DNA of 64,000 nucleotides from Saccharothrix sp. HUAS TT1 (GTDB lineage: Bacteria; Actinomycetota; Actinomycetes; Mycobacteriales; Pseudonocardiaceae). Below are positions 8,296 through 35,587 of this stretch, piece after piece. The translations under genes were made by a program, and so were the position numbers. Each line of letters starts with the position of its first letter. Within the stretch, counting starts at the first letter, position 1. The stretch is taken from positions 186,001 to 250,000 of the forward strand of contig NZ_CP160453.1 of the NCBI RefSeq assembly GCF_040744945.1, written 5' to 3'. The notes beneath the pieces were generated by a model, which was not told the DNA's origin, made no database searches, and saw nothing but the letters and a program-made list of their open reading frames with translations.

Positions 8296-9114
8296 GTGCT
8301 GCGCACCAGGGTGGCGGTCCCGGCCGTCGCGCTCTACAACGCCTGGCAGGCCGAGGGTCTGCCGGCGCTGCACAACGCGCTGCTGACCCAGGTCGACTTC
8401 GACGAGGACCGGCTGGCCGAGGGCGACCTCACGGGGCTGGCCGACCTGGCCCGCCGCGGGTGGGCCGAGCTGGAACGGCTCGGCCTGGCCCGCGGCAGGC
8501 AGGTGCACGCCGACCTGAGCCGGTCGTTGCGCCTGATCGCCGAGGCGGGCGCCGAGTACTACGCGTTCTTCAACGAGGGCGACGGCGGCACGCGCACCGC
8601 CCTGGTGGCGCGGTCCGGTGACGACGCGCTGCGCGTCGTGCTGCGGGGTGACGGGCACTTCGTGCTGGAGCCGGTCCGGGCCGAGGACGCGGTGCAGTCG
8701 CTGGTGTCGGCGCTGCCGGAGGCGAGGCCGGGGCGCGGCGGCGTGATCTCGCTGCCCGCGGACGCGGTGCACGACAAGCCGCGGCAGCCCCGGCCGGACC
8801 AGGAAGGCGGGTCGTTCCTGCAGGCCAGCAGGCCGACCGGGGCGCACTCGGCCGAGGTTCAGCAACTGCGCAAGCTGCTGGCCGAGCCGCGCACCGGCGG
8901 CGGCCAGGTGTACGCCGCGCGGCGTGACCGGTACGGGCGCAAGCAGCGGTGCGCCGCGCCGTTGACGTACTTCGACACGGCCACCGGGCGCTACCTGTCG
9001 GCGAAGACGACCGGCGGCGACGGCACGCCGTGGATCACCGTGCAGCCGGCCGACTTCGCCGCGGTGCAGAACAGGGTGCGGCAGCTCAGCGCCGACGCAG
9101 CGCCTCGCGGTTGA
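8296..9114 (+). CDS. ESX secretion-associated protein EspG family
   Basis: 272 residues. The order and style of the chain match EspG chaperones: an N-terminal VALYNAWQAEGLPAL segment, a central GLADLARRGWAELERLGLA, then alternating beta strands around HADLSRSLRLIAEAGAEYYAFF, and a C-terminal GRYLSAKTTGGDGTPWITVQPAD. EspG binds the PE-PPE tip in the cytoplasm and keeps substrates competent for the ESX machine. The GTG start has GGGGG eight bases upstream and sits 27 bases after the PPE-like gene, so they are probably one operon. The last 29 bases overlap the convergent oxidase gene. Confidence 0.82.
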   Translation: MLRTRVAVPAVALYNAWQAEGLPALHNALLTQVDFDEDRLAEGDLTGLADLARRGWAELERLGLARGRQVHADLSRSLRLIAEAGAEYYAFFNEGDGGTRTALVARSGDDALRVVLRGDGHFVLEPVRAEDAVQSLVSALPEARPGRGGVISLPADAVHDKPRQPRPDQEGGSFLQASRPTGAHSAEVQQLRKLLAEPRTGGGQVYAARRDRYGRKQRCAAPLTYFDTATGRYLSAKTTGGDGTPWITVQPADFAAVQNRVRQLSADAAPRG

Positions 9115-10261
9115 GCTCGGCCGGGCTGCGGTGCCCGGACAGGCCGAGGGTGAGGTCGAAGTCGGCGAGCAGGCCGCGCAGCACGTGCCGGACGCCGACC
9201 TGCCCGCCGTGCGCCAGGCCGTAGGCGAACGGGCGGCCGACGAGCACGGCCTTCGCACCGAGCGCGAGGGCCTTGACGACGTCCGCACCGCTGCGGATGC
9301 CGGAGTCGAACAGCACCTCGACCTGCTCGCCGACCGCGTCGGCGATCTCCGGCAGCACCTCCAGCGACCCGACCGCGCCGTCCACCTGCCGCCCGCCGTG
9401 GTTGGACACGACGATGCCCTGCACACCGGCGTCGACGGCCTTGCGCGCGTCGTCCACGTGCTGGATGCCCTTGAGCACGATCGGGCCGTCCCAGTGCTCG
9501 CGCAGGAACGACAGCTGGTCCCACGACTTGTCGGTGCCGGTGAACAGCTGCACCCAGCGCAGGATCGCCATCGGCAGGTCGTCCTCGGGCGACGCGGCGA
9601 GCCCGGCCCGGAACGCCGGGTCGGAGAACGGGATCGCCGTCCCGACGCCGCGCAGGAACGGCAGGTAGGACTGGTCCAGGTCGTGCGGTCGCCAGGCCAG
9701 GGTCCAGGTGTCGAGGGTGACGACGAGGACGCGGTAACCGGCCCGGCGGGCGCGGTCGAGGATGCTGGCGGCCACGTCCGGGTCGTTCGGCCAGTAGAGC
9801 TGGAACCAGCGGGCGGCGTCGCCGGCGGCCTCGGCGACCTCCTCGATCGTGTGCGAGGAGGCGGTGGACAGCACGAACGGCACGCCGAGCTCGGCGGCGG
9901 CGCGGGCGGTCGCCAGCTCGCCGTCGGGGTGCAGGATCGACTGGACGCCGACCGGCGCGAGCAGCACCGGCGCGGGCAGGTCGGTGCCGAGCAACGACGT
10001 CCCGAGGTGCCGCCGGGTGGCGTCGGTGAGCATCCGCGGCACGATCCGCCAGTCGTCGAACGCCTGCCGGTTGGCCCGGGCCGTCGCCCCACCACCGGCC
10101 GCACCCGCCACGTACCAGAACGGCCCGGGCCCGAGCCGTTCGCGGGCGGACGCCTCCAGCGCTTCGGGGTCCGTGGTGAACGGCGGCACGGTGCCCGCCA
10201 GGCCCTGGAGGTAGATCTCGTTCTGGTAGGCAGCGAACTGACCAGCCACTTTGCACCCCAT
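9086..10261 (-). CDS. FMN-dependent alpha-hydroxy-acid oxidase, lactate 2-monooxygenase-like, with element-supplied N-terminus
   Basis: 391 residues of the FMN-dependent hydroxy-acid oxidase barrel. Visible features are WYVAGAAGGG, LSTASSHTIEEV, FQLYWPNDPD, LVVTLDTWTLAWRP, LKGIQH (active-site Lys region), IVVSNHGGRQVDG (catalytic His and Arg) and LFDSGIRSGADVVKAL (flavin phosphate site). The long insert after TLDTW and the NEIYLQGL start resemble lactate 2-monooxygenase (L-lactate plus oxygen to acetate and carbon dioxide). The extreme 5' end was replaced by the integrated element: it now begins MGCK at 10261, or VAGQF from GTG at 10249, which has a GGGG six bases before it. The original MTGFAAYQ end lies at 20437-20475. 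The integrase stops 16 bases upstream, so the two genes may be co-transcribed. Confidence 0.87.
   Translation of the reverse strand: MGCKVAGQFAAYQNEIYLQGLAGTVPPFTTDPEALEASARERLGPGPFWYVAGAAGGGATARANRQAFDDWRIVPRMLTDATRRHLGTSLLGTDLPAPVLLAPVGVQSILHPDGELATARAAAELGVPFVLSTASSHTIEEVAEAAGDAARWFQLYWPNDPDVAASILDRARRAGYRVLVVTLDTWTLAWRPHDLDQSYLPFLRGVGTAIPFSDPAFRAGLAASPEDDLPMAILRWVQLFTGTDKSWDQLSFLREHWDGPIVLKGIQHVDDARKAVDAGVQGIVVSNHGGRQVDGAVGSLEVLPEIADAVGEQVEVLFDSGIRSGADVVKALALGAKAVLVGRPFAYGLAHGGQVGVRHVLRGLLADFDLTLGLSGHRSPAELNREALRRR
10213..10228 (-). repeat. attL core, 16-bp direct repeat
   Basis: AGATCTCGTTCTGGTA on the plus strand is repeated exactly at 20442-20457. It lies inside the oxidase gene (codons for YQNEI). 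On the minus strand, similarity extends a further 9 bases upstream with only two differences, both at synonymous third positions. Confidence 0.9.
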
Positions 10262-10270
10262 CCCCCGCTC

Positions 10271-10292
10271 AGGCCGTCTACAGGCCGTCTGC
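10271..10292. repeat. tandem 11-bp direct repeats near attL, possible integrase arm sites
   Basis: AGGCCGTCTAC is followed immediately by AGGCCGTCTGC, in the last codons of the integrase and the gap after it. The same motif is doubled with the same 11-bp period near the other end (20317-20338). Confidence 0.55.
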
Positions 10293-11558
10293 GGAACCGT
10301 CCGCGTCGTCGGTCTGCCGATCATGCTCTGCCTCGTCCGCGCCGCCCGCAAGCACACGATCGACCGCCTTTCGGGTGCGATCACTGCTGGACGGCAGCAG
10401 GTGCGTGTAGACGCGCATCGTGAAGGCCGGGTCGGAGTGGCCCAACCACTCTGCGAGCGCCCTGATCGACTCCCCCGCGTCCAGGAGCACCGAGGCGTAG
10501 AAGTGCCGCAGCGCGTGCATCCCGTCCTGTTGCGGCACCCGCGTGACCTTCGCCCGTTCGAGCGCAGGCGTCCACACGTACTGGTTGAACCCATCCCGCC
10601 GGATCGGGTTGCCGTCCTTGTTGACCAAGATCAGCGAGACCGTCTCCGGCTCCCCGTCCGGTTCCTTCCACGGCAAGGTGACGTCGACCGGCGGGAACTC
10701 CTCCACGTAGGCGTCAAGGTCCCGCAGGACGCTGTCCGGCAGCGGCACGTCCCGCTCCTTGCCACCCTTCGGAGGCGCGAACACCTGCACGTTGTCCACG
10801 ACGCGCACTTGCCGAACAACGTGCAACACCTTCTCGTCACGGTCGACGTCGTCCATCGAGAGCCCGAAGACTTCGCCCTGACGCAGCCCGCAACCGGCCG
10901 CCAGCGGAACGATGATCTTGTACTTGGCTGTCAACGCGAGCCGGACGGCCGCCAGCTTGCCCGCCGACCACGGGACGATCTTCCGCTTGTCCGGCTGTGG
11001 TCGGGTGACGCTCTTGGCCTTGCACGGGTTCTCGGCGATCATCTTGTCGTCAATAGCGGCGTTGAAGATTGCCGAGACATGCACGAACACGACAGCCCGC
11101 GTTCCACCGGCCAACTTCTTCTGCTGCAACGCACGCAGCCAACTACGGATGTGAGTCGGCAAAATCGAGCCGATCTCCTTGCCGCCCAGATACGGATAGA
11201 CCAACTTCTTCAACCGCCGCTCGACCGCGTTGCGCGTACTGCCGTCGAAAGCTTGATCTTTCAGCCACGAATCCGCGTACACCTGAAACGACACCTTGCC
11301 CGCTTCCGGGTCGAGGTACGTACCGGTGCGCTTCTGGTTCTCGACTTCGAGCAGGAAAGCATCAGCAGCACTCCGCTGCCTGTCCGGGAAGCTCTTGCTG
11401 CGTTCCTGCCCGGACGGGTCGATGTAGCGGACCTTGTACCGCATCCCGACACCGTGGAGTTCCGTCTTCTCCCGTACCGGCTTACCCTTGCCGTCGAGTA
11501 CAGGCTTGCCGGACTCGTCCGACTTCGGCCGCCACCAGCGGTCTTGGATGTGCCCCAT
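10278..11558 (-). CDS. int: AICE tyrosine integrase
   Basis: 426 residues. The catalytic set is complete: Arg226 in CGLRQGEV, H348-x-x-R351 in HALRHFYA, His374 in LGHSDPAF and Tyr384 in MRVYTHLL. An N-terminal arm-binding region (YKVRYIDPSGQERSKSFPD) and a central SAM-like core-binding domain (about 88-178) precede the catalytic domain, as in phage and AICE integrases. AGGAG lies nine bases before the ATG. The gene ends 50 bases from the attL core, the normal int-attP arrangement, and in the integrated state points straight into the oxidase gene. It should catalyse site-specific insertion into that gene and, with the excisionase, excision. The C-terminal tail after Tyr384 is acidic and unusually long. 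Confidence 0.95.
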   Translation of the reverse strand: MGHIQDRWWRPKSDESGKPVLDGKGKPVREKTELHGVGMRYKVRYIDPSGQERSKSFPDRQRSAADAFLLEVENQKRTGTYLDPEAGKVSFQVYADSWLKDQAFDGSTRNAVERRLKKLVYPYLGGKEIGSILPTHIRSWLRALQQKKLAGGTRAVVFVHVSAIFNAAIDDKMIAENPCKAKSVTRPQPDKRKIVPWSAGKLAAVRLALTAKYKIIVPLAAGCGLRQGEVFGLSMDDVDRDEKVLHVVRQVRVVDNVQVFAPPKGGKERDVPLPDSVLRDLDAYVEEFPPVDVTLPWKEPDGEPETVSLILVNKDGNPIRRDGFNQYVWTPALERAKVTRVPQQDGMHALRHFYASVLLDAGESIRALAEWLGHSDPAFTMRVYTHLLPSSSDRTRKAVDRVLAGGADEAEHDRQTDDADGSADGL

Positions 11559-11593
11559 GACAGTCTTCTCCTGTCGATCGAATTGCCGAAAGA

Positions 11594-11782
11594 TCAGGCG
11601 GCGTTCTCGTCCGCTTGGTCAGCCCACGCCCGAACCTTGGCCGGGACGTACCGGAGGTACTTCCCCACCTTCTTCACGGGCGGCCCGATGCGCTGCCACT
11701 TCCACTGGTAAAGGGTTTTGACCGGAACGCCGAGGAATGCCGATACTTCGTCCACACCCCAGAGCGGTTCGATTTCAGTCAT
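11594..11782 (-). CDS. xis: excisionase, small MerR-like helix-turn-helix protein
   Basis: 62 residues in which nearly the whole chain is one winged helix-turn-helix: LWGVDEVSAFLGVPVKTLYQWKW, then GPPVKKVGKYLRYVPAKVRAW. This is the standard excisionase-family unit that sits between RepSA and Int in pSAM2-like elements and directs integrase to excision. The ATG follows GGGGGGAAGTC. It starts 18 bases after the repSA stop and ends 35 bases before int, consistent with one rep-xis-int transcript. Confidence 0.9.
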   Translation of the reverse strand: MTEIEPLWGVDEVSAFLGVPVKTLYQWKWQRIGPPVKKVGKYLRYVPAKVRAWADQADENAA

Positions 11783-11800
11783 GACTTCCCCCCACGGTTG

Positions 11801-13405
11801 TCAAGCTGCTAGCGAAGTTGCCGAAAGATCCGGAGGTTCACCGGCCGCGAGCATTGCTCGGTCGTACTCCGCCTTCCACCGCGTCCGTTCTGCGATGGCG
11901 TGCATGAGTTGGTGCGCCCGTGGTGGCACGTTGGGGTCGCCGGGCCGGACCTTGTGCCAGACGAGCTGTGACATGTCGGGTTCCGGCTTCTCGATCCCGA
12001 CCGCCTTCAGGGCCTCGATGACGAACCGCTTCCGGTCCGCCCGGTGGTCGGCGAGCGTCTTGCCGGACCATTTGCGCGAGACGAGCACGCGTCGACCGGG
12101 CAGGCCGAGGGTGGTTCGGCGGTGCGCCCGTCCCTTGCAGTGCCCCGGTGTCGTGCGCGAACCGGCCCCGCGTGGCTGAACGCCGTAGAGCAACCAGACC
12201 GGGCAGCGGTCGGAGCAGGGCGTCACGGCCAGCTCGTCCGCCAGTCGGTCGGCGTGCCTGCGCTGCCGGTCGGTGGTCTGCTCGACCACTTCACCGATGG
12301 ACTTGGTGAGGTACTTGGTCAGGTAGCCGATGTGTCGTCCGGCCTCTTCCGAGCCGCCGAGGATGCCCTTGGAGTGCACCTGACGCCCGAAGGTCACCAC
12401 GTGCGCCGGTTCGTCAATGGCCTCGACCGCATCCGCCCAGGCCGTCAGCGGCTCACGCGTGTCGGGGTCAACGAACGCTTCGGCCCGTGCGTCCCAGACC
12501 GGCAGGTGGTCACCGCTGTAGACCCGTTCGTCGTGGTTGGGCCACCACACCTGGTGATACGTGGCCGCCGTGACGAGCCGGATGGTCCCGTGCGGGATCG
12601 AACCGCGGATTGCCGCGTGCAGGTGTGGCGCCGCTCGCTTCTGTGGCTCGACCGTGGCGAAGTACTGCACGTCCCAGCCGACGACCCGCCGCAGGTTCTG
12701 CCACCACCGGTCGACCAGGGAGGCAAAGTGCACCGCGTCCCGAGCCGCCCGCCGGTAGTCGTAGGTGTCCGGATCGACCGGAGTCCCGTCGTCCCACACC
12801 CGCCCGTAGGTGTCGAGGGTGAGCGTGACGAACATCGAGGGCCGGAATCCTCCCGCGTACTCCCGGCCCACCGTGCGCTTCTCCACGCGCCGCCGAGGCA
12901 GGTTCGGCGCGTCCTGCCGACGCTTGGTCGACCGCTTCACCGGCCGCTTGCCAGGTGCGTCGGGCGAGGGAAAGCGGCCCCGGACACCGAGTTGCCGAAG
13001 TTCGGCGTCGACGCTGTGGATCTCCTCCCGCAGCTCGTCAGCGTCGCCCGCCTCACCGGTCTCGACCGCTTCCCGGTATGCCTTGACCAGGTCCGCCCGG
13101 AACGTCAGGAGCTCCTTCTGGTCTTCAGTCGGCGCGGTCGGGGTGAAGTCGGGTTCCTCGGCCATGTGCCAGCCCTCACGGCACTGGACCATCCGCAACG
13201 CCTTGGCCTTCTTGGCGCACGGCACACAGACGCTTTCGGCCGTCGACCCGCAGGGCACTGCCACGTAGCGGACTTCGAAGGTGGCCCGGTCCTCCACTTC
13301 CATCGTGAAGGGCCGGACGCAGACGCCGTACTTCTCGGCGGCAGCCTTGGCCACGTCCAGGGCGATGGGCTGACGCATTCGCTCCGCGCGAGTCTCGCCG
13401 CTCAT
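11801..13405 (-). CDS. repSA: RepSA-type rolling-circle replication initiator
   Basis: 534 residues, basic, with the order of rolling-circle initiator motifs: FVTLTLDTYG near 192-201 (motif 1), PHLHAAIRG near 260-268 with the metal-binding HxH (motif 2), and YLTKYLTK at 361-368 with the candidate nicking tyrosines (motif 3). An N-terminal CVPC pair near 60-63 and further cysteines near HMAEE and TPCSDRC may bind zinc. It would nick the element's double-strand origin after excision. The ATG overlaps the stop of the upstream FtsK-like gene (ATGA), so the two are translationally coupled, as in pSAM2 relatives. Confidence 0.93.
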   Translation of the reverse strand: MSGETRAERMRQPIALDVAKAAAEKYGVCVRPFTMEVEDRATFEVRYVAVPCGSTAESVCVPCAKKAKALRMVQCREGWHMAEEPDFTPTAPTEDQKELLTFRADLVKAYREAVETGEAGDADELREEIHSVDAELRQLGVRGRFPSPDAPGKRPVKRSTKRRQDAPNLPRRRVEKRTVGREYAGGFRPSMFVTLTLDTYGRVWDDGTPVDPDTYDYRRAARDAVHFASLVDRWWQNLRRVVGWDVQYFATVEPQKRAAPHLHAAIRGSIPHGTIRLVTAATYHQVWWPNHDERVYSGDHLPVWDARAEAFVDPDTREPLTAWADAVEAIDEPAHVVTFGRQVHSKGILGGSEEAGRHIGYLTKYLTKSIGEVVEQTTDRQRRHADRLADELAVTPCSDRCPVWLLYGVQPRGAGSRTTPGHCKGRAHRRTTLGLPGRRVLVSRKWSGKTLADHRADRKRFVIEALKAVGIEKPEPDMSQLVWHKVRPGDPNVPPRAHQLMHAIAERTRWKAEYDRAMLAAGEPPDLSATSLAA

Positions 13406-14868
13406 GCCGCCGTCCTCCCTTCGGTGCCGCCCGGTTGGTTGGGGAAGTCGTGCACAGTCGCGTTAGCCAGGTAGACGCCAAGCTCGACAAGATCGGCGTC
13501 GGTGATGTGGAAGGCCCGAACCCGTTCCGGTTCCCGCTGCCCGTCGTGCTTGACCCACGCGACGCCGGGCGTGTTCTCGCTGATCTCATGGGCCGCCGCG
13601 CCGCGCTGCCGGACGCCATCACCGAGGACCATGTCCACTTGTTGCGGCTCATCCAGGCGCAGCGCCACGCGGGTGCTGAACAAGTGCCGGAACCCGACAA
13701 CCTCCTTACGCGGGTCCTGCACGAGGCCCACGACGGCGTAGCCGGGTGCGCGGCCCTGTGAGGTGATCGTCTGGATAGCCCGCACGGCTCGTTCGCGGAG
13801 CTGCTTGTCCGGCTGGTAGGCGATCAGGTCCGCCAGCTCGTCCACCACCAGGACCGTGAACGGCTCCCCCGTCGACCGCGCCCACAGCCGCCGGACACCC
13901 CGGTACCGCGTCGCCCGCTCCTTGACCTCTGCGGCGATTTCCTCAAGCAGCGCAACGGCTTCCGGTCCGTTGTCGTACACGACACGGTCGAAGGCGTCTG
14001 GACATTGACCGAGTTCCATCCCGCCCTTCGGGTCGATCCCCACGAGCCGCACCAACCCCGTCCGGATGGCCGGAGCGAGCTGCCAGACCAGCGACCAGAG
14101 CACCGAGCCCTTGCCCGCACCCGGCACGCCGACCACGAGCACCTGAGACCCGAGCAACCGCAGTCGCCACGGCTTGCCCGTCTCCGTCCTGCCCACCACC
14201 ACCCGCTTGAGATCCACCTCGGCATCCGTCAGCGCGGGCACGGTCAGGGGGCGCAGCAGCGGGTCACGGTGGACGAAGTCCAGCTCGATCACCCTCGGCC
14301 GCAGCACCCGGACCCGGCACGAGCGAGCGCCGAACGAGTGCGCCAGGCCGTCCCGCCGCAGCTCCCATGCCTCCGGCGACTGGGCAGGCACCATCCGCAC
14401 CCGGACCCGATCCCGCCAGCCGTCCGACCGGACCCGCCGCAGTTTCGGCCGGAACTCACGCCCCCGGTCCCGCTTGGCCAGGTCTGCAAGGCGCATCACC
14501 GACCGCCACCGGGGCACGTACACGGTGGCGCGTCGCCACTCCGTGACGAGCCGGTACCAGCCGTGCCTCAGGAACGACCCGCGATCCAATCCGGCCCAGA
14601 TGGTCAGGGCAGCGACCAGCGACAACAACGCCAGCACCAGCGGCGAGAGGCCGAACCGCCACCAGCACCAGGCCGCCGACAACGGCACCAACGTGACCAC
14701 TGGATACCGGACGACAACGAGCACCAGGCGCACGACGCCGACCAAGACCAGCCACACCGCGACCACCAGCAGGGCCAGCCACTTCGCCTTACCGGGCACC
14801 AGCGCCCACCACGGCACCCGAGGCCGCACACCCTCGAACGGAGCCGGGTCCACCCACTTGCCGCCCAT
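13402..14868 (-). CDS. traSA: FtsK/SpoIIIE-type conjugal transfer ATPase (TraB/TraSA-like)
   Basis: 488 residues. Two hydrophobic segments (about 30-53 and 60-94) anchor the N-terminus. The ATPase domain has Walker A GVPGAGKG at 247-254 and Walker B TVLVVDELADL near 338-348, followed by TITSQGRAPGYAVVG and FSTRVALRLDEPQQ, the FtsK/HerA style seen in AICE transfer proteins. Family members translocate double-stranded DNA between hyphae and are the only essential transfer gene in such elements. The ATG shares TGATG with the stop of the preceding small gene, and the stop overlaps repSA. A longer frame to 14997 overlaps that small gene and is not preferred. Confidence 0.93.
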   Translation of the reverse strand: MGGKWVDPAPFEGVRPRVPWWALVPGKAKWLALLVVAVWLVLVGVVRLVLVVVRYPVVTLVPLSAAWCWWRFGLSPLVLALLSLVAALTIWAGLDRGSFLRHGWYRLVTEWRRATVYVPRWRSVMRLADLAKRDRGREFRPKLRRVRSDGWRDRVRVRMVPAQSPEAWELRRDGLAHSFGARSCRVRVLRPRVIELDFVHRDPLLRPLTVPALTDAEVDLKRVVVGRTETGKPWRLRLLGSQVLVVGVPGAGKGSVLWSLVWQLAPAIRTGLVRLVGIDPKGGMELGQCPDAFDRVVYDNGPEAVALLEEIAAEVKERATRYRGVRRLWARSTGEPFTVLVVDELADLIAYQPDKQLRERAVRAIQTITSQGRAPGYAVVGLVQDPRKEVVGFRHLFSTRVALRLDEPQQVDMVLGDGVRQRGAAAHEISENTPGVAWVKHDGQREPERVRAFHITDADLVELGVYLANATVHDFPNQPGGTEGRTAA

Positions 14869-15056
14869 CACGCACGCCCCGCCGGGGCGAAGATCAGCGG
14901 CAGCCACCCCAGACACGAGCAGCAGACGAGCTGGTTGGGCGCGTAGACGCCGAACCGCTTGCACGCCCCGCAGGGGCGACCGTTGGACAGCTTCCACACA
15001 GACGGGGCACCGCGCCGACTTGACGCGTGACCCCCACGTACCGATAGCCTTGTCAT
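14868..15056 (-). CDS. small Cys-rich (zinc-ribbon-like) AICE protein
   Basis: 62 residues, very basic at the start, with CGAC and CCSC pairs separated by 13 residues (CGACKRFGVYAPNQLVCCSC), which looks like a zinc ribbon. The stop is fused to the start of the transfer ATPase gene (TGATG), so it is probably translated with it. Short proteins of this kind sit upstream of the FtsK-like gene in many AICEs; their role is not established. The ATG has no strong ribosome site. Confidence 0.65.
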   Translation of the reverse strand: MTRLSVRGGHASSRRGAPSVWKLSNGRPCGACKRFGVYAPNQLVCCSCLGWLPLIFAPAGRA

Positions 15057-15108
15057 GACCGGAACCCCTTGTGTGTCAACAAAAGCGCGCGAGAAGACCG
15101 GTCGATGC

Positions 15109-15163
15109 GTCGTCGGTGAACTGCTCCAGGCCCGCCAAGACTTGAGGTCCGTTCACCGACGAC
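15109..15163. promoter_or_regulatory. 13-bp perfect inverted repeat in element control region
   Basis: GTCGTCGGTGAAC (15109-15121) pairs exactly with 15151-15163 across a 29-base spacer, in the 199-base gap upstream of the transfer operon. It could be an operator, a terminator-like structure or part of an origin; the sequence does not decide. Confidence 0.5.
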
Positions 15164-15255
15164 CACGACCGACAGGTCAGTGATCGTCTTCAGTTGTCAC
15201 CCGACAGTGCGGGCGGACACCGCCGCATCCGATGCCCGCCCGCATCACCGGCTAG

Positions 15256-15978
15256 CTAGTAGTCCAACGGGTCGGGCATCCAGCGCAACCAGGCCGCGAG
15301 ACCGCCGAGGGTGATCTTGAACCGCGTCTCCTCGCGCTCCTCCCCGCCGTCCTCCCGCCACTCGTGCGCCGTGACATGACCGGCCGCGACCAAGTCCAGA
15401 CAGGCCAGCCGCACCATCTCCTCAGCCGCGCCCGCCGCCGTCACCAAGTCCTCGATCGCCCACGCCCGTGACGGCACCAACACCAGCGCATCCGCCACCC
15501 GGTACAGCACCGGGAACGAGTAGCCCACCAACTCGCCACGCGCCCGGTCCTCGTCCGACAGACGCGACCCCATCACCGGCATCAACCGTGGATCACGCCA
15601 CATATCCGCATCTCGCAACCAGTCGTGCGCCACGACCGGCCCACCCCAGTAGGCGAGCCCCTCGGGCGACAGACGATGCCGCTGCACGGACACCGCACTC
15701 CGCGAAGGTCCCTTATCGACCGTCAGGTGCCCCAGCTCGACCAGGTCACGACAGATGTCACGCACTGGGGAGTACGGCACCTTCGCCGCCTTCTCCAACG
15801 CCCGCACCGACCATTCCTCGTGCGGGTAGCCGACGATGTGCTGCATCACCGCCTCGAACATGAACGGCGCGTACCCGGCATCGGACAACTCCGCCAGCGG
15901 CAACCCCTCCCCGACGACACGAGCCAACCCGCCACCGGCGTGGCCACGACTCCGCTGCACATCCCGATCAACGCTCAT
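15256..15978 (-). CDS. winged-helix-like AICE regulatory protein, function unknown
   Basis: 240 residues from the ATG at 15978; a longer frame to 16005 overlaps the upstream gene more. The region WSVRALEKAAKVPYSPVRDICRDLVELGHLTV looks like a winged helix, and a second similar unit (WAIEDLVTAAGAAEEMVRLACLDLVAAGHVTA) follows near residue 175, suggesting a duplicated DNA-binding fold. It occupies the position of the KorSA-type transfer repressor in pSAM2 but does not look like a classic GntR protein. The start overlaps the preceding small gene by 11 bases. Confidence 0.6.
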   Translation of the reverse strand: MSVDRDVQRSRGHAGGGLARVVGEGLPLAELSDAGYAPFMFEAVMQHIVGYPHEEWSVRALEKAAKVPYSPVRDICRDLVELGHLTVDKGPSRSAVSVQRHRLSPEGLAYWGGPVVAHDWLRDADMWRDPRLMPVMGSRLSDEDRARGELVGYSFPVLYRVADALVLVPSRAWAIEDLVTAAGAAEEMVRLACLDLVAAGHVTAHEWREDGGEEREETRFKITLGGLAAWLRWMPDPLDY

Positions 15979-16219
15979 CCGTCTCGATCCCCTCCGCCTT
16001 GGCACGCTCGCGCTTGGCCCAATACAGCGCCTCGTGGTGATGACCCCGATCGACTTCCGCGACCCGCGCGTACACCTCGGCCGATCGCGTGTAGAACTCC
16101 CGCCACACGTCAGGTGGTGCGTCGGGACCGGGCATGAGATGCGTCAACGCCTCGTGGGCGTCCTTGAGCGACGTCACCGCGTACGCCGCTGCCCACCGGT
16201 CAGGCTTGGTCTTCGCCAC
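15968..16219 (-). CDS. small AICE protein, function unknown
   Basis: 83 residues, GTG start, mostly helical and charged: DRWAAAYAVTSLKDAHEALTHL, then EVYARVAEVDRGHHHEALYWAKRERAKAEG. The style matches short helical proteins found at the same place in Amycolatopsis-type elements (AMED_5909-like, from memory). No catalytic or membrane motif is visible. It overlaps its neighbours at both ends, indicating a tight operon with the upstream 111-residue protein. Confidence 0.6.
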   Translation of the reverse strand: MAKTKPDRWAAAYAVTSLKDAHEALTHLMPGPDAPPDVWREFYTRSAEVYARVAEVDRGHHHEALYWAKRERAKAEGIETDER

Positions 16220-16535
16220 GACCGCTCACCCCCTCGACCGGAGCGTGCACGCGATGCCCACCGGCCTGCCGATCACCACCGGCAACGCGCTCGTTGACGT
16301 CGGCCTGGTGGTCGAACGTCTCAGCCGCGTGCAGCGCCGCCGCCTTGGCCCACCACGGCGTGCTCTCCAACGCCGCGAGCTGCCGCCACAACCACGCCAC
16401 CCGCCGATAGGTCGGCGCGATCCGAGCCGCAGCCGCCGGATCATCGGCCGCGACGTACCGGTTCGCCTCATGCGCCTCCGTGTAGGTCCGGTACGCCGCC
16501 TGCCACTGCACGGTCAGTTGCTGAAGATCCGACAC
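16200..16535 (-). CDS. small AICE protein, function unknown
   Basis: 111 residues with GTG start. Residues 1-80 are helical with regularly spaced Trp (VQWQAAY, VAWLWRQLAALESTPWWAKAAAL), resembling the next small protein in length and helix spacing, so the two may be distant paralogues. The last ~30 residues (GGDRQAGGHRVHAPVEG) look disordered. It starts three bases after the pra-like stop and overlaps the following gene by 20 bases. Confidence 0.55.
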   Translation of the reverse strand: MSDLQQLTVQWQAAYRTYTEAHEANRYVAADDPAAAARIAPTYRRVAWLWRQLAALESTPWWAKAAALHAAETFDHQADVNERVAGGDRQAGGHRVHAPVEGVSGRGEDQA

Positions 16536-16538
16536 GGC

Positions 16539-17048
16539 TCATGCCGCCTTGGCCTCAGCGCTGCCACCGTTCGACTTGCCACCGGCTGGAGCCGAACCCG
16601 TCGACCTCCCCACCGCCCGGAACCCGGTCGCCCGGAACAGGAACGACTGGTACTTGAACTCCCCGTTGCCCGCGATGCGCGGCTCAGCCGTCAGCCCTTC
16701 CAACTCCACCGGCCGCATTCCCGGCAACACCTCACCGGTGGTCGGCACCGGCTGCACATCGGCCAGCAACGTGATCTCGAAGCTCTTGCGCTTGGCGTTG
16801 GGCTCGTGCGGATCGGTGACCGTGACCTTCCACTGCCGCTTACCGGTCGCCTCGTCCACCCGCTGACGCACCGGCCGACCGGCCGCCCTCTCGTCACGCG
16901 TCTGGTACTCCGTGTCCGGCATGACCTCCCCGACCATCACCAGGCCCTGAGGGAACGCGTCATCGAACGAGACGGGGAACCGGTACCCTTGCTGATCGCC
17001 ATCGGCTTCACTCCTCTGACTGGTGCCGCTGTATCGCGGCTTGCCCAT
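16539..17048 (-). CDS. pra: Pra-like activator of plasmid replication, integration and excision
   Basis: The body (residues 22-150) reads RFPVSFDDAFPQGLVMVGEV, then QWKVTVTDP, FEITLLADVQPVP, RPVELEGLTAEPRI and SFLFRATGFRA, which matches the AICE family annotated as replication/integration/excision activator. In pSAM2, Pra switches on the rep-xis-int operon. The 5' end is odd: the in-frame ATG at 17048 has no ribosome site, while an ATG at 17002 with AGAGGAG eight bases before it is in the +1 frame and would read MAISK, the usual kind of family start. One extra G in the GGG run at 16986-16988 (minus strand) would join the two. A frameshift or a sequencing error is possible. Confidence 0.8.
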   Translation of the reverse strand: MGKPRYSGTSQRSEADGDQQGYRFPVSFDDAFPQGLVMVGEVMPDTEYQTRDERAAGRPVRQRVDEATGKRQWKVTVTDPHEPNAKRKSFEITLLADVQPVPTTGEVLPGMRPVELEGLTAEPRIAGNGEFKYQSFLFRATGFRAVGRSTGSAPAGGKSNGGSAEAKAA

Positions 17049-17130
17049 TCAGATTCGTTGGCCAATGGTCCCGTCCCAGGTCCGCAGCGGTCTCACCTGC
17101 CGCGTACCGCCCGCGTGTCGATCTCAGGTT

Positions 17131-17149
17131 GTCTCGTCTTGGTCTCGTC
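17131..17149. promoter_or_regulatory. direct repeat in divergent promoter of DUF5919 regulator and pra
   Basis: GTCTCGTC occurs at 17131-17138 and 17142-17149 (11-bp period), upstream of TAGCCT (17157-17162), a possible -10 element for the plus-strand regulator. It is a candidate binding site for that regulator or another element protein. Confidence 0.45.
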
Positions 17150-17193
17150 CCGGTGCTAGCCTCGACCGAAGGAACCACGTGGGGGGAGACCAC

Positions 17194-18081
17194 ATGGCCA
17201 CAGAGTCCACTCTCTTGAGAGTCCTGCTTCGACAACGCCACATGCAGGGCTACCGCACCTTCTGCAAGGAGTACGACCGCGTCGCCAAGCAGCTCGACAC
17301 CGACCTGATCGGCCGCTACCCCAGCAAGGCCCAGTTCTACCGCTGGCTGTCCGGCGACCTACTCGGCCTGCCCTACGCCGACCACTGCCGCATCCTCGAA
17401 AAGATGTTCCCCGGCTGGACCGCCGAGCAGCTGCTGTCCCCACACGAGGGCGACACCAACAGCCTCATCACCCCACCCCAACGAACCGCGGCCTCCACCC
17501 ACCCCGTCCCGCGCCCGGTCCAGATGCCCCAACAGGCCCGCCTGGCCGACGTCACCGCCGTCTACCCCAGCCGCACCGAGTTCCTGCACAACGTCACCCC
17601 ACGCGACCTCTTCGAAGGCGCCAAGGCCATCGACATCGCGGGCCTGTCCCTCAACGTCCTGTGCCAGCAGTACTCCGACAAGGCCCTCTTGGACTCGATC
17701 GAGACTGGCACCGTCATCAAGGCCCTGTTCCTCGACCCGAACGGCCACAACATCACCGCCCGCGAACAGGAGGAAGGCCTACCCGAAGGCCACCTCTCCA
17801 TGCTCACCCGCCTCAACATCGAAGCCCTACGCCGAGTCGGAGCCAAGGTCTCACCCAACGCACACGGCCAGCTCCACATCCGCGTCTACGACGAACCACT
17901 CCGCTACAACATCCTCATCACCGACCAGACCAAGTGCGTGGTCCAGCCCTACTTGCCCGACGCCCGAGGCGTCGAATCCCCTACCCTCGTGATCGAGAAG
18001 GACGACACCGCACCCGGCCTGTTCGCCACCTTCTCCCAGGTGTTCGACTCCATGTGGAACCGCGCAAAGGAAACCGCGTGA
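17194..18081 (+). CDS. DUF5919-type transcriptional regulator of AICE
   Basis: 295 residues. The ATG has GGGGGGAG upstream. Residues 1-75 form a helix-turn-helix-like region (RTFCKEYDRVAKQL, YPSKAQFYRWLSGDLLGLPYADHCRILEKMFPGWTAEQLL), typical of XRE-like actinobacterial regulators. Residues about 125-290 make a phospholipase-D-like fold (FEGAKAIDIAGLSLNVLC, VIKALFLDPNG, HIRVYDEPLRYNILITDQ), the DUF5919 style. It is divergent from pra across a 145-base promoter region, so it may control the element. Its stop overlaps the start of the phosphatase-like gene (GTGA), tying the two functionally. Confidence 0.75.
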   Translation: MATESTLLRVLLRQRHMQGYRTFCKEYDRVAKQLDTDLIGRYPSKAQFYRWLSGDLLGLPYADHCRILEKMFPGWTAEQLLSPHEGDTNSLITPPQRTAASTHPVPRPVQMPQQARLADVTAVYPSRTEFLHNVTPRDLFEGAKAIDIAGLSLNVLCQQYSDKALLDSIETGTVIKALFLDPNGHNITAREQEEGLPEGHLSMLTRLNIEALRRVGAKVSPNAHGQLHIRVYDEPLRYNILITDQTKCVVQPYLPDARGVESPTLVIEKDDTAPGLFATFSQVFDSMWNRAKETA

Positions 18082-18893
18082 AGCGCTCCCGCAATGAACT
18101 GGCCGAGATTGCTCAACAGGCCGTCGACATTGGGCACCAGATCTTGAAGTCAACTCGCCCCAATACGGTGACATCAAAGTCGGACCGTGATGTATATACG
18201 GATGTGGACGTGCACATTGAGCGCCGCATTCGCGCCCATTTGAGTCAAATAACCCCTGAATTCGGCTTCCTAGGCGAAGAAGAGGGCGGGGCCGACCTGC
18301 AGGCTTCAGAAATGCCGACTTGGGTACTTGACCCGATCGACGGAACCTCCAACTTTGCCCACGGCATTCCACTCTACGCCGTTCAAATTGCATTGGTCGA
18401 GCAAGGCAAAGCGCTCGTCGCAGCCGTCGATCTTCCAGTAACGAATAGTCGATATGTCGCAGTAAAGGGCGGCGGTGCATACGTCAATGGTCGGCGCATC
18501 CGAGTGAGCAACACTCAAAAACTAGAGAAATCGGTTGTCTCTATAGGAGATTACGCCACCGGCGAAGGATCAAAGCGAAAAAATGACCTACGCATTGCAC
18601 TAACCGCTCTATTGGCACAGAAAGTCGAGCGAATCCGCATGTTCGGTTCCGCCGCACATGATCTCGTCTGGGCGGCTGAAGGACGCACTGAAGCAGCCGT
18701 AATGTTGTCGAACAACACAGTTGACACCGTCGCTGGCACCTTGATAGCGGTTGAGGCAGGCGCACTTGCGCTCGACGGCCAAGGACAGCCTCACAATATC
18801 GACTCGAAAGAAACAGTAGTACTTACACCTTTCTTGGCCGAGCATCTCATGCCTTCGATTCGCTCACTCCTGAAGGGCAGCGGGAAGATCTGA
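18078..18893 (+). CDS. inositol monophosphatase-family phosphatase (AICE cargo)
   Basis: 271 residues. Metal-binding motifs of the family are visible: GEEEG at 66-70, DPIDGT at 85-90, and VDTVAG near 215-220 where the usual form is WDxAAG. Predicted activity is Mg-dependent dephosphorylation of a sugar- or inositol-type phosphate or PAP; the substrate is not evident. The GTG overlaps the preceding stop, so it is coupled to the DUF5919 regulator. Composition changes within this gene: the 60 bases at 18541-18600 hold 29 G+C, against 43 of 60 at 46321-46380, suggesting recent acquisition. The last 30 bases overlap the convergent membrane protein gene. Confidence 0.85.
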   Translation: MKRSRNELAEIAQQAVDIGHQILKSTRPNTVTSKSDRDVYTDVDVHIERRIRAHLSQITPEFGFLGEEEGGADLQASEMPTWVLDPIDGTSNFAHGIPLYAVQIALVEQGKALVAAVDLPVTNSRYVAVKGGGAYVNGRRIRVSNTQKLEKSVVSIGDYATGEGSKRKNDLRIALTALLAQKVERIRMFGSAAHDLVWAAEGRTEAAVMLSNNTVDTVAGTLIAVEAGALALDGQGQPHNIDSKETVVLTPFLAEHLMPSIRSLLKGSGKI

Positions 18894-19610
18894 GGGGTTT
18901 TCCTCAAGCAGTTCCTCGTATCTGTTGGAGAACTTTCGCTCCCCCGTCGTGTCGTCAACGTAATGATAAGTGATGTGGCGAATCTCTGCGCCGCGAATTA
19001 TCACACCTTCCCATTGACTCCCAACTTCAACGACACGCGGGTCGCCACCCTGGACCGGAGGGTCAATCCGAGTAAGATGAACACCTTCGAGGAGAATCTC
19101 ACGCTCATCGAATTTCCCACCTGCCGTATAAGCCTTCACCATTCCGAAGAACGTCGTGCCATCATTTAGTTGCACCCGTACCCATGTTGAAGTTCCGACA
19201 GGCCTGGCCAGGTGGAAGCTCTGAAACCATAGACTTTGGGCGCTCAGAGTACCGCTACCAGACTTCTTTGAAAGGCAAAAATGCCAAACCGTCGCGAGCC
19301 CACATGCGAGAAGGAGTCCCACTAGACCGTTTACTGCGATCAGCTTGAAGTTTTCTTGCACATAACGATTACCATCTCGGACCCACGCCCCCACATCGAC
19401 TACCAACGATGGAAGCCATATGCGAGCCAACGTCATCACAGTGAGCGCTGCAACAGTAAATGACAAACTAGCTATCGCGATCCGTGCAATCTCCCTGAAG
19501 GCCGACTCAGACGAATTTAGTCGGTGACGTGATCGCAACAGCTCGAATAGAATGCCTGGAGCAACCAGCCCCAGGAAGACCACAAAAGCGCCGAAGCTCT
19601 GCGGGATCAT
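18864..19610 (-). CDS. DUF6338-like membrane protein (AICE cargo)
   Basis: 248 residues. The N-terminus SFGAFVVFLGLVAPGILFELL is a first membrane segment. Others lie near 45-65 and 92-112. The C-terminal half is soluble and beta-rich: TWVRVQLNDGTTFFGMVKAYT, then EILLEGVHL and WEGVIIRGAEIRHITY, which matches the layout of the DUF6338 family (from memory). Function is unknown; a defence or envelope role is only a possibility. The ATG overlaps the stop of the 81-residue gene upstream (ATGA), so the pair is translationally coupled. Composition is AT-rich relative to the chromosome. Confidence 0.65.
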   Translation of the reverse strand: MIPQSFGAFVVFLGLVAPGILFELLRSRHRLNSSESAFREIARIAIASLSFTVAALTVMTLARIWLPSLVVDVGAWVRDGNRYVQENFKLIAVNGLVGLLLACGLATVWHFCLSKKSGSGTLSAQSLWFQSFHLARPVGTSTWVRVQLNDGTTFFGMVKAYTAGGKFDEREILLEGVHLTRIDPPVQGGDPRVVEVGSQWEGVIIRGAEIRHITYHYVDDTTGERKFSNRYEELLEENPSDLPAALQE

Positions 19611-19852
19611 CGCTTCTCCACGTCGTCAATCGCACCCTTTTTGGTCACACCCTTTCCAGCCTCTGTGCTGATTACATCGGCGTTGTTCGAAACCTTTCTA
19701 CGGCTCTCGTCGGCCTTACTTGAACCAGCCGGCAATTTCTTTTCAGTTTGCCCGGTCGTTTTCTTCGTTTTCGGCATGAATCGACCTGTTTTCGCAGATC
19801 GACCAGTCGTGGAAACGTCTTTATTCTTAGATTTTGGGTTTTTCTCTACCAT
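19607..19852 (-). CDS. small basic Lys/Thr-rich protein coupled to DUF6338-like protein
   Basis: 81 residues from ATG 19852, with AGGAG nine bases upstream; an upstream in-frame GTG at 19876 is less likely. The chain is rich in Lys, Thr and Ser and appears disordered, with DVSTTGRSAKTGRFMPK near residue 10-26, a segment like the RSAKTGRFV motif of many short proteins of unknown role found in mobile DNA. No fold or enzyme motif is visible. Its stop overlaps the start of the membrane protein gene, so they are likely partners. Confidence 0.55.
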   Translation of the reverse strand: MVEKNPKSKNKDVSTTGRSAKTGRFMPKTKKTTGQTEKKLPAGSSKADESRRKVSNNADVISTEAGKGVTKKGAIDDVEKR

Positions 19853-20253
19853 GTTGACCAACTCCTGGCGACGCACACTGATAGAACTGTAATCCGTGGA
19901 AGCACCCTAGGCGTTACTGCCGAACTTAGCTCTATGGGATCAAGGCGCGCCGCCTGCGGCAGCTCGCGCGGCACTGCCCGACTCACGTGGGCACCGACTC
20001 CCCGCATCACGGCACGCCGGGCTCCCGCTTCGCTCCGCCCGTCGGCCGTGCGCGGAGTCGGTGCACGTGGCCGGGGAGCGGCGCGCCGCCACAGAGGCCA
20101 CAACCACAAGCAGCTCGGGAGCGACACCGGTCGGGACGATCGCGCGGTCACGTGGCTTGGTCGGGCTGGGCACGGCGATCGGCTGCCGCGACGGCTGCGC
20201 CGTCTTGCCATCGAGAAGGCCACCGGCGATGAGCACCAGGCCCAGGATTCACG

Positions 20254-20300
20254 ACGGGCGCTGTCCCTGACGCGTCGTTCGCATCAAGGGCAGCGCCCGT
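20254..20300. terminator. strong hairpin in right end of AICE (terminator or origin structure)
   Basis: 17-base arms 20254-20270 and 20284-20300 match at 15 of 17 positions around a 13-base loop. There is no U tract. It could stop transcription leaving the element or be a replication structure. Confidence 0.45.
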
Positions 20301-20316
20301 GTGGTGATCAACTTCC

Positions 20317-20338
20317 AGGCCGTCACCAGGCCGTACAA
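20317..20338. repeat. tandem 11-bp direct repeats near attR, possible integrase arm sites
   Basis: AGGCCGTCACC is followed by AGGCCGTACAA. The shared AGGCCGT core, same strand and same 11-bp period recur near attL (10271-10292), which suggests a paired recombinase-binding function. Confidence 0.55.
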
Positions 20339-20436
20339 CGTCGGGCGGTCACGAGAACCACCGAGAACTGACGAGAGAGTCTGCGCTGGTCAAAGGCTTG
20401 CCGAGTCCGAAGAGGACTGGTCAGCCAGAACAGCAC

Positions 20437-20475
20437 TCAGAAGATCTCGTTCTGGTACGCGGCGAATCCGGTCAT
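20437..20475 (-). pseudogene. displaced original 5' end of the oxidase gene
   Basis: ATG at 20475 with AAGGTG upstream reads MTGFAAYQNEIF then TGA. The codons up to NEI match the oxidase N-terminus; the rest of the gene now lies 10.2 kb away at attL. Element sequence adds Phe and the stop. Before insertion the oxidase began here, downstream of secDF. Confidence 0.85.
20442..20457 (-). repeat. attR core, 16-bp direct repeat
   Basis: Exact copy of the attL core at 10213-10228. Bases to the right of it are the old chromosome (start codon and ribosome site of the oxidase); bases to the left are element. Confidence 0.9.
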
Positions 20476-20487
20476 GGTCACACCTTG

Positions 20488-20589
20488 CTACACGAGCAGC
20501 CGTTTCGGCAGGAGCCGGGTCAGGCGGTCCGAGCGCGGCACGGCCACCTCCCCCGGGTCGTCCACGAGCACCGCGTGGCCCGTGTTCAC
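20488..20589 (-). CDS. 33-residue mini-ORF coupled to secDF, function unknown
   Basis: GTG at 20589 overlaps the secDF stop (GTGA) and reads 33 codons to TAG, 12 bases before the old oxidase start. Of the 33 sense codons, 32 end in G or C, as expected of a real gene here. The peptide begins VNTGHAVLVDDPGEVAVP and ends in the basic LTRLLPKRLLV. I do not recognise it. It may be a small functional peptide or a regulatory leader for the oxidase. Confidence 0.4.
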   Translation of the reverse strand: MNTGHAVLVDDPGEVAVPRSDRLTRLLPKRLLV

Positions 20590-22739
20590 CGGTCCTCCAG
20601 CAAGACCGCCACCGGCGCCGCGGTCAGCACGGTCGAGACCGTGCCGGCGACCAGCCCGATCAGCAGCGCGGTGGAGAAGTCGGCCAGCGACCCGTCGCCG
20701 AGCACCAGCAGCGCGGCCAGCACGAACAGCACGCCGATGCCGGTGTTGACGGTCCGCGGCAGGGTTTGCAGCACCGCGGAGCTCATCACGTCGGGGGCCG
20801 GGGCCCGCGTCCGCCGCAGCTCGCGCACCCGGTCGAACACGACGACGGAGTCGTTCACCGAGTACCCGATGACGGTGAGCAGCGCGGCCAGGAACACCGC
20901 GTCCGCCGTCTTGCCCAGCCACGCGAACGCGCCGACGAGCACGACCACGTCGGTCACCAGCGCGACCACGGTCGCCACGCCGAGCCGCCAGTCGAACCGC
21001 ACGGCCAGGTACACCAGCTGCGCGGCCACCGCGATGGCCAGCGCGATCAGCGCGTTGCGGCGCAGCTCGGACCCGAGGCTGGGGCCGATCAGCTCGTTGC
21101 TGACCTGCTCGGCGCCGCCGGTGGCCCGGTCGACGGCCTCGCCGACCCGGACCGCGGCGGCCGAGTCGATCGGGCCGGTGCGCACCGAGATGCCGTCCGA
21201 CCCGGAGGTGGTCACGACCGCGTCGCCGAACCCGGCGGACGCCAGCTCGGCGCGCACCCGACCGGTGTCGGTGGCGGACGCGGTGAACTCCAGCAGCCGC
21301 CCGCCGGTGAACTCCACCCCCAGCTCCAGCCCGCGCACGACCAGGCCGCCGACGGCGGCGAGCAGCACGAGACCGGCCGCGAGCAGCCACCGCCGCGGCC
21401 GCCGGAACAGGGTGAACCCCCGTGCGGTGAGCCACGTGCGGACCCGGCCCAACGAGTGCAGCCCGCTCCACGCCGGCCGCCGCTCCAGCAGCGGCATGAC
21501 GAGCTGCAGCAGCACCCGGCTGAGCACCAGCGCGCTGAACAGCGACGCCAGCACGCCGATCGACAGGGTGACGCCGAACCCCTTGACCGGACCGGTGGCC
21601 AGCCAGAACAGCAGGCCGGCGGCCAGCAGCGTGGTCACGTTCGAGTCGGCGACCGCGCTCAGCGCGCCGCGGAACCCCTGGTCCACCGACCTCGGCAGGC
21701 GCTTGCGGCGGGCGTACTCCTCCCGCGCCCGCTCGAACACCAGCACGTTCGCGTCCACCGCCATGCCGATGGCCAGCACGAACCCGGCCAGGCCGGGCAG
21801 CGTCAGGGTCGCGCCGACGGCCAGCATCGCGGCGTACGCGAGGGCCGCGTAGCCGGCCAGCGCCAGCACCGCCACGAGCCCGGCCAGCCGGTACACGAAC
21901 ACGAGGAACAGCCCGGTCAGGGCCACGCCGATGATCGCCGCCCGAGCGCTGGCCTCGATCGCCTCGGCGCCGAGCGTCGGGCCGACGGTCCGCTGCTCGA
22001 CCACCTCGACCGGCACCGGCAGCGCGCCGGACCGGATCACCAGCGCCAGCTCCTCGGCCTCGGCCTGGCCGAACCGGCCGGTGATCTGGGTGCTGCCGCC
22101 GATCATGCCGGTGCCGCACGCCACGGACGGGTCGACCTGCGGCGCGGACACCACCTCGTCGTCCAGCACGAACGCCACCCGCCGCTTGAAGTCACCCGGT
22201 GGTGAGCACGCGGCTTCGGCCGTCACCCGCTGCCACGCCCGCGGGGCGTCCCCCTGGAAGTCGACGCCGACGACGTAACCGACGCCCTGCGAGTTGAGCG
22301 TGGCGCGGGCGTCCTTGATGCCCTCGCCGGTGAGCACGACCTCGCCGAGACCGACGGCGTCACCGTCCGGGGTGGGCACGTCGCCGGGTCCGGTCACGGG
22401 CCGCACCCGCAGCTGGGCGGTGCGGCCGAGCACGTCGATGGCCTCGGTCGGGTCTTGGACGCCGGGCAGTTCCACGACGATGCGGTGGTCGCCGGACCGG
22501 GCGAGCACCGGTTCGGCCACGCCGAGTTCGTCCACCCGGCGGCGCAGCACCTCCATCGCGCGGTCGGTGGCGTCGGAGGTGGCTTCGGTCGGGGTTTCCA
22601 GCACGATCCGGGTGCCGCCGCGCAGGTCGAGGCCGAGGCGCGGTTGGGCGGTGAGCAGGGTGAACGCGGACGCGGCGAGCACGCCGAGGGCAAGCAGCCC
22701 ACGGACCAGCAGTGCTCGCCGCGCGCTGGGGCGCGGCAT
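20586..22739 (-). CDS. secDF: fused protein translocase subunit SecDF
   Basis: 717 residues carrying SecD and SecF in one chain. The SecD half has the early LGLDLRGGTRIVLE signature, a periplasmic domain and six membrane segments with GMAVDANVLVFERAREE. The SecF half begins near residue 435, with VEFTGGRLLEF and six more segments including VIGYSVNDSVVVFDRVRE. SecDF uses proton motive force to help complete export through SecYEG. Actinobacteria normally have separate secD and secF next to yajC; this fused copy sits in a different context, so it is probably an additional paralogue. It follows a secreted protein gene by 37 bases and a TPR gene before that, and led into the oxidase before the AICE inserted. 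Confidence 0.92.
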   Translation of the reverse strand: MPRPSARRALLVRGLLALGVLAASAFTLLTAQPRLGLDLRGGTRIVLETPTEATSDATDRAMEVLRRRVDELGVAEPVLARSGDHRIVVELPGVQDPTEAIDVLGRTAQLRVRPVTGPGDVPTPDGDAVGLGEVVLTGEGIKDARATLNSQGVGYVVGVDFQGDAPRAWQRVTAEAACSPPGDFKRRVAFVLDDEVVSAPQVDPSVACGTGMIGGSTQITGRFGQAEAEELALVIRSGALPVPVEVVEQRTVGPTLGAEAIEASARAAIIGVALTGLFLVFVYRLAGLVAVLALAGYAALAYAAMLAVGATLTLPGLAGFVLAIGMAVDANVLVFERAREEYARRKRLPRSVDQGFRGALSAVADSNVTTLLAAGLLFWLATGPVKGFGVTLSIGVLASLFSALVLSRVLLQLVMPLLERRPAWSGLHSLGRVRTWLTARGFTLFRRPRRWLLAAGLVLLAAVGGLVVRGLELGVEFTGGRLLEFTASATDTGRVRAELASAGFGDAVVTTSGSDGISVRTGPIDSAAAVRVGEAVDRATGGAEQVSNELIGPSLGSELRRNALIALAIAVAAQLVYLAVRFDWRLGVATVVALVTDVVVLVGAFAWLGKTADAVFLAALLTVIGYSVNDSVVVFDRVRELRRTRAPAPDVMSSAVLQTLPRTVNTGIGVLFVLAALLVLGDGSLADFSTALLIGLVAGTVSTVLTAAPVAVLLEDR

Positions 22740-35510: not shown

Positions 35511-35587
35511 GGTGGGTGTAGCTCAGCTGGCAGAGCACTGGGTTGTGATCCCAGGTGTCGCGGGTTCAAGTCCCGTCACTCACCCCA
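35511..35587 (+). tRNA. tRNA-His (anticodon GTG)
   Basis: Cloverleaf is complete: acceptor GTGGGTG with CACTCAC, D arm GCTCAGCTGGCAGAGC, anticodon stem CTGGG/CCCAG with loop TTGTGAT (anticodon 35545-35547), T arm GCGGG/CCCGT. The extra 5' G (35511) opposite discriminator C73 (35584) is the tRNA-His identity pair. CCA is encoded at 35585-35587. Confidence 0.97.

Follow-up and report, generated by a model that had tools for sequence, protein, structure and literature searches.

SXT/R391 ICEs are transferred by a type IV secretion system, and AICEs by a Rep protein together with an FtsK-like protein. Replacement of the 5' end of a gene by an integrating element is already known from dusA islands and from SXT. 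The dusA-specific islands, IMEVchUSA3 among them, integrate into the 5' end of a protein-coding gene (PMC8409611, PMC4482086), and reporter fusions gave expression after integration (PMC8409611). The SXT/R391 ICEs, inserted in prfC, likewise enter the 5' end of a protein-coding gene and bring along a new promoter and a new N-terminus (PMC8409611, PMC4344509). AICEs of the pSAM2 type encode Int, Rep and an FtsK-like Tra and have repeats at both ends; the vast majority of tyrosine-integrase AICEs reside in the 3' ends of tRNA genes, with the exception of the pSLS subfamily, and, as far as the available descriptions go, none is described as replacing the 5' end of a gene (PMC3218068). The element analyzed here shares its gene complement with the pSAM2-type AICEs and its kind of target with the dusA islands and SXT/R391. 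It differs from the dusA systems, a group of mobilizable islands and prophages that occur in other bacteria and enter a different gene, and, going by the accessible portions of their descriptions, it is set apart from them by a promoter-like sequence inside the integrase coding end, by stacked scars and by starts that outlast the element (PMC8409611, PMC4482086); SXT/R391, in turn, are ICEs of Gammaproteobacteria (PMC8409611, PMC4344509). What is added here is an AICE case, with a box inside int, scars and re-insertion. Among the matches listed for the open literature there was no report of a lactate-2-monooxygenase-like oxidase as an AICE site.

The element is 10,229 bp long and lies in the window, i.e. 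the whole analyzed stretch of 64,000 nucleotides from Saccharothrix sp. HUAS TT1 (all features are on the minus strand unless indicated otherwise). As originally noted, its two ends are marked by a 16-bp repeat (TACCAGAACGAGATCT) in perfect copies, one of which (attL, 10213-10228) falls within the codons for YQNEI near the oxidase start and the other (attR, 20442-20457), without a mismatch, at the secDF end. These are the only two core sites in the window when up to 3 mismatches are allowed (0.08 expected); genome-wide, 6 sites are found with up to 2 mismatches, two of them exact and four with 2 mismatches. Over the 25 bases comprising TTCGCTGCC or TTCGCCGCG and the core, the two ends differ, again as noted, only at two synonymous positions of an Ala-Ala pair (GCT/GCC and GCC/GCG). 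The direct repeat AGACGGCCTG stands twice at 10270..10290, spaced 11 bp apart and overlapping the int stop, as a putative pair of arm sites of the integrase, and a second arm-type pair, GGCCGT at 20318 and 20329, also 11 bp apart, is found at 20318..20334.

The genes between the repeats agree with the AICE identity proposed for the element: a tyrosine integrase of 426 aa (10278..11558; PF00589, E 5e-19, and PF22022), an excisionase (Xis) candidate of 62 aa with an HTH_17 domain (11594..11782; PF12728, E 4e-7), a RepSA-type replication initiator (11801..13405; PF20199, E 2e-104, profile positions 2-438 of 438) and an FtsK/SpoIIIE-like transfer protein, Tra (13402..14997; PF01580, E 8e-10, 39 bits at a cut-off of 24), for which the TraB model gave only 27.6 bits at a cut-off of 800. 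Judged by this gene content, with a site-specific integrase, a RepSA-type Rep, an FtsK/SpoIIIE-like Tra, att repeats at both ends and int adjoining one of them, the element is an AICE. The 3' end of a tRNA gene, the usual but not defining target of AICEs, is absent, the only tRNA genes of the window being at 35512 and 38743; a tRNA as the target was rejected, since no tRNA gene adjoins the site. The remaining genes comprise an ORF of unknown function (15256..16005), for which no Pfam family reached the cut-off and which has relatives in the remnants in genomes G017 and G010, a second ORF of unknown function (16134..17159, plus strand), pieces of which are 84-92% identical in the G017 remnant, and two cargo ORFs, one of the inositol monophosphatase family (17661..18893, plus strand; PF00459, E 1e-47; 66% identical copy in G017) and one DUF6338 (18864..19610; PF19865, E 4e-29). 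The GC content of the element is 62-68%, versus about 75% in the flanks. The host flank on the attR side is secDF (20586..22739; NF009583, 855 bits). A short ORF at 20488-20589 (MNTGHAVLVDDPGEVAVPRSDRLTRLLPKRLLV) overlaps the secDF stop and looks, by eye, like the remnant of an exchanger gene with an internal deletion; the related exchanger ORF is long in G004, G001, G012 and G019.

The target gene (9086..10261) encodes an FMN-dependent, lactate 2-monooxygenase-like oxidase, whose domain was identified as FMN_dh in the in-frame profile search (PF01070, E 5e-126). The closest solved structures are L-lactate oxidases and lactate 2-monooxygenase, the latter aligned over approximately the full length; the alignment with 6dvh/6dvi begins at residue 9, thus the exchanged residues precede the aligned part. 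At attL, the open frame noted originally is present and reads MGCKVAGQFAAYQNEIYLQG..., but its first codon is probably GTG at 10249-10247 (MAGQFAAYQ) and not, as initially supposed, ATG at 10261-10259 (MGCKVAGQF): in the alignment of the eight element-type copies described below, the GTG is kept in all eight, in frame with the core, and the ATG in seven, and the ATG stands immediately 3' of GGGGG/GAGGG, with no space for a ribosome-binding gap. The first codons supplied by the element would then be GTGGCTGGTCAGTTCGCTGCC (10229..10249). At attR lies the stranded native start with an RBS-like AAGGTG upstream (20437..20475); the fragment had been given as MTGFAAYQNEI plus TGA, which is indeed present except that an F had been left out, and by eye it reads MTGFAAYQNEIF followed by TGA. 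This TGA, immediately past the far core (GATCTTCTGA; 20437-20441) and closing the stranded start, is seen in 4 of the 5 elements with a far core (the window, G017, G010 and G023) and is lost in G024.

At the sequence level, comparison with the genus documents empty sites alongside insertion and repeated occupancy, the decay of elements and the scars they leave, one stacked insertion and the conservation of a promoter-like box. All 25 genomes of the genus, this one (G000) included, contain one close oxidase (25/25, E <= 1e-120), and the DNA upstream of it was read and assigned to one of three states. Eight genomes are of a native operon type (G001, G004, G006, G012, G014, G019, G020, G022), with the order secDF, exchanger ORF (long in four genomes, shortened or missing in four; a Na/H exchanger, PF00999, in the in-frame profile search of G004) and then TAGCAAGGTG...ATGACC. 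Seven are of an element type (G000, G002, G007, G010, G017, G023, G024), with the int tail followed by GTG(A/G)CTGGTCAGTTCGC. Ten are of a promoter type, i.e. they possess the box described below without the int tail (G003, G005, G008, G009, G011, G013, G015, G016, G018, G021). The search for empty sites suggested originally was therefore fruitful, with an uninterrupted native start in 8/25 genomes, and so was that for other elements with this core, with element-type starts at the same site in six further genomes. Rep, Tra and a whole Int together were detected by tblastn in the 20-kb locus of G000 only; G017, G010, G023 and G024 are decayed islands in which element pieces are left along with a second core (with 2 mismatches in G024), and G002 and G007 are scars that retain only the Int end, with no second core found in their 20-kb loci. 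G002 comes close to the uninterrupted relative beginning MGCKVAGQF that had been considered as possible counter-evidence, as its secDF and oxidase are uninterrupted and the protein begins MGCTVAGQF, but Int residues 395-425 are encoded directly upstream, and for this reason it is read as a scar and not as an original start.

The clearest empty site is in the sister pair G006/G024 (support 100), whose SecDF and oxidase genes are 98.6% and 99.1% identical at the nucleotide level: G006 is continuous through the core, and the similarity of G024 to it stops at the core region on both sides. In G024 the oxidase-side core is intact, and the RBS-like region, core and TGA of the stranded copy are starting to diverge. 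The native start is stranded at the far core in G000, G017 and G024; the far core of G010 is preceded by a promoter-type region and start, and in G023 an older tail and start of the element type (GTGACCGGTCAGTTCGCCGC) precede the far core, an arrangement most simply explained by a newer element inserted into an older scar. Features of the known 5'-end replacers of the dusA and prfC type that are found here too are insertion in the 5' coding end, empty sites in relatives and an in-frame new start. In a DNA search of 390 family genomes with the int tail plus start, scored on two candidates per genome so that extra copies could be missed, some match was obtained in 90 genomes, and a match covering int tail, box and start together in only 7, all at the oxidase site and twice in G023.

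The last codons of int (codons 403-412) contain a promoter-like box, TTGCGG (10351-10346) N17 GAGCAT (10328-10323), at 10323..10351, so that a promoter-like signal is packed within the integrase reading frame. The pattern TTGC-NN-N17/18-(G/C)AGCAT is present in all 8 element-type tails and all 11 promoter-type regions (10 genomes and the far core of G010), but it was defined from these same 19 sequences, and the weight of the evidence therefore lies on the controls. It is found in none of the 11 operon-type regions (8 genomes and the far cores of G000, G017 and G024) and, when a looser pattern was applied to 300 bp, in none of 24 outgroups (20 loci and G032, G033, G034 and G039). Across the 25 loci (1.01 Mb, both strands) it matches 20 times. 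Of these matches 17 fall at the oxidase core and 2 at a far core; the remaining one, in G017 (position 4553), lies inside the decayed island, distant from both cores. The box is located approximately where the similarity to most other integrases ends, its codons CTT, CAT and GAT are uncommon in the rest of Int (1/34, 1/9 and 6/31 outside the tail), and among 30 int loci only that of the window has both TTGCGG and CATGAT at the end of int. The encoded peptide, VLA-x6-[E/D]HD, is retained in the integrases P0003-P0005 (93, 80 and 82% identical) and absent from P0006 (67% identical). A similarity search aligned the int tail with the upstream region of G008 (82% over 50 bp, E 1.2e-5). The box would probably give the oxidase a new promoter; against this, by our own count, each hexamer matches the sigma-70 consensus at only 3 of 6 positions, and a sigma-70 scan gave no promoter here at its threshold. 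Of the predicted exchange of promoter and first residues, the new start is supported by comparison with the 24 congeners, and the promoter part derives from sequence conservation.

We have high confidence in a scheme in which an AICE would insert at the 5' end of the oxidase gene, supply a start and a promoter-like box and decay leaving both behind, with the site re-usable. The tyrosine integrase would insert the AICE into the conserved YQNEI codons near the 5' end of the oxidase gene. Its attP would carry, between int and the core, an RBS-like sequence, GTG and codons for MAGQFAA as a substitute start, together with the promoter-like TTGCGG-N17-GAGCAT inside the last int codons; that attP carries a replacement start had been predicted, and the in-frame GTG in 8/8 element-type copies and the empty sites in congeners speak for it, except that the first residues are probably MAGQF. 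Integration is expected to strand the native start at the opposite end of the element, its frame closed by the TGA just past the core, and to leave the oxidase behind the start of the element. On subsequent decay the box and the start would stay, because the oxidase then probably depends on them, and since the site would remain usable, another element could insert into the scar. Three parts of this scheme are inferred, namely promoter activity of the box, expression and usefulness of the oxidase, and a limit set on the deletions by selection. The predicted excised junctions are int tail-core-TTCTGAG for attP and ATGACCGGATTCGCCGCG-core-ACCTC for attB. In the related species one site occurs in empty, occupied, decayed, scarred and re-occupied form, a natural series that makes it testable whether a start-replacing mobile element leaves a lasting change in host regulation.

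The origin of the box is a separate question. The upstream regions of the ten promoter-type genomes could be the original host promoters, one of which, with its start, was captured by the element into the 3' end of int and is now carried between species; we give this a little less than an even chance. Five genomes of clade B and G018 combine the box with a start that is native-like and lacks the extra CAG codon, and remnants of the far-end arm (P'), which could have served as proof that the promoter-type loci are old scars, gave no match in any of them at E < 0.1; both observations support the host-first direction. It also agrees with the box-type region stranded at the far core of G010 and with the Int-like sequence of promoter-type loci, which extends no more than 1-4 nt beyond the box on its upstream side. 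If, on the other hand, the element had the box first, the promoter-type genomes would be old scars. This direction is supported by the native TAGCARR-ATG arrangement in 12 of the 13 g8 and g65 outgroup genomes (G031 included, G276 being the exception) and by the extra CAG codon, which is present also in the promoter-type genomes G003, G011, G013 and G021. The absence of the box from the outgroup genera (0/24) argues against host capture as well, as does the presence of the box-encoded peptide, seen as protein and not as DNA, in integrases that are 80-82% identical.

It is considerably less probable that the box is not a promoter at all but is conserved as the C-terminus of the integrase (VLA-x6-EHD), with oxidase transcription coming from the promoter of int or from host read-through. 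The scan for sigma-70 promoters returned none at this site at the scan threshold, and int and the oxidase gene are in the same direction, with 28 nt from the int stop to the GTG; however, the box is kept in the 7 (of 8) element-type copies that lack a whole int and in the 11 promoter-type regions that lack the int tail, and the 17-nt spacer varies while the box stays. Finally, ordinary divergence or an effect of start-codon annotation, with the repeat incidental, could be invoked for the N-terminal difference, given the native start GTGGCTGGTCAG in other genera (G103, G099), but it is contradicted already by the empty-site pair G006/G024, which breaks at the core, as well as by the native start still found at attR and the AICE genes between the repeats, and it is hardly credible.

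Returning to the scheme of insertion and decay, the number of events was estimated on a tree of 35 genomes built from five genes that neighbor the site. Nine outgroups lack three of these genes (o26 is missing also in G005, G018 and G023, and SecDF in G409). The Fitch count gives 7 changes for the 7 element-type genomes and 6 changes for box versus no box, these counts being parsimony on linked genes, undated, with support of 56-73 at some nodes. Parsimony thus suggests seven insertion events, a number that could shrink once element loss or interspecies recombination is allowed for. The identity of the int tail exceeds that of SecDF in only 12 of 21 genome pairs, so this test does not show recent transfer between species. 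A more far-reaching and tentative idea, which we hold as somewhat less likely than not, is that the element family acts as a serial promoter-rewriter, AICEs having re-inserted over the long term at one oxidase start in this genus, each overwriting the promoter and first codons and decaying to an integrase-tail fossil kept as the host promoter. If so, as many as 17 of the 25 genomes would have, as a seemingly native oxidase promoter, a fossil or a live integrase tail, and the promoter of a host gene would lie within the coding sequence of the integrase.

Matches to Int were found in 163 of the 390 family genomes, and the best 29 int loci besides that of the window (L092-L120) were compared. Their integrases are 52-67% identical to this Int, and, like this element, many have, close to the stop of int, CGGCCTG sites spaced 11 bp apart. 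Ten of the 29 were examined for their target, and all ten adjoin 3' ends of other genes, namely of glutamine synthetase (4), HlyIII (5) and MBOAT (1). These relatives were rejected as further members at the oxidase site, since among the best 30 loci of the 163 matching genomes the oxidase flank is present in that of the window only. ARAGORN, which would miss partial genes, detected no complete tRNA gene in any of the 30 int loci. Searches of viral_contigs gave 6 pattern matches with no relative confirmed, and those of plasmids 2 Streptomyces records (at about 46%).

Two further observations concern promoter-type loci. Upstream of the oxidase in G016 and G009 (L052 and L053) the exchanger frame continues through the box region, and its end in G016, ...LAIAGDRVEHDRRT, is by eye similar to VLAGGADEAEHDRQT, the tail of Int, read in the same frame. 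At about 18.9-19.6 kb of the G015 locus (L054), some 19 kb from the oxidase, there is DNA 67-78% identical to two parts of the element, perhaps belonging to another, different AICE nearby.
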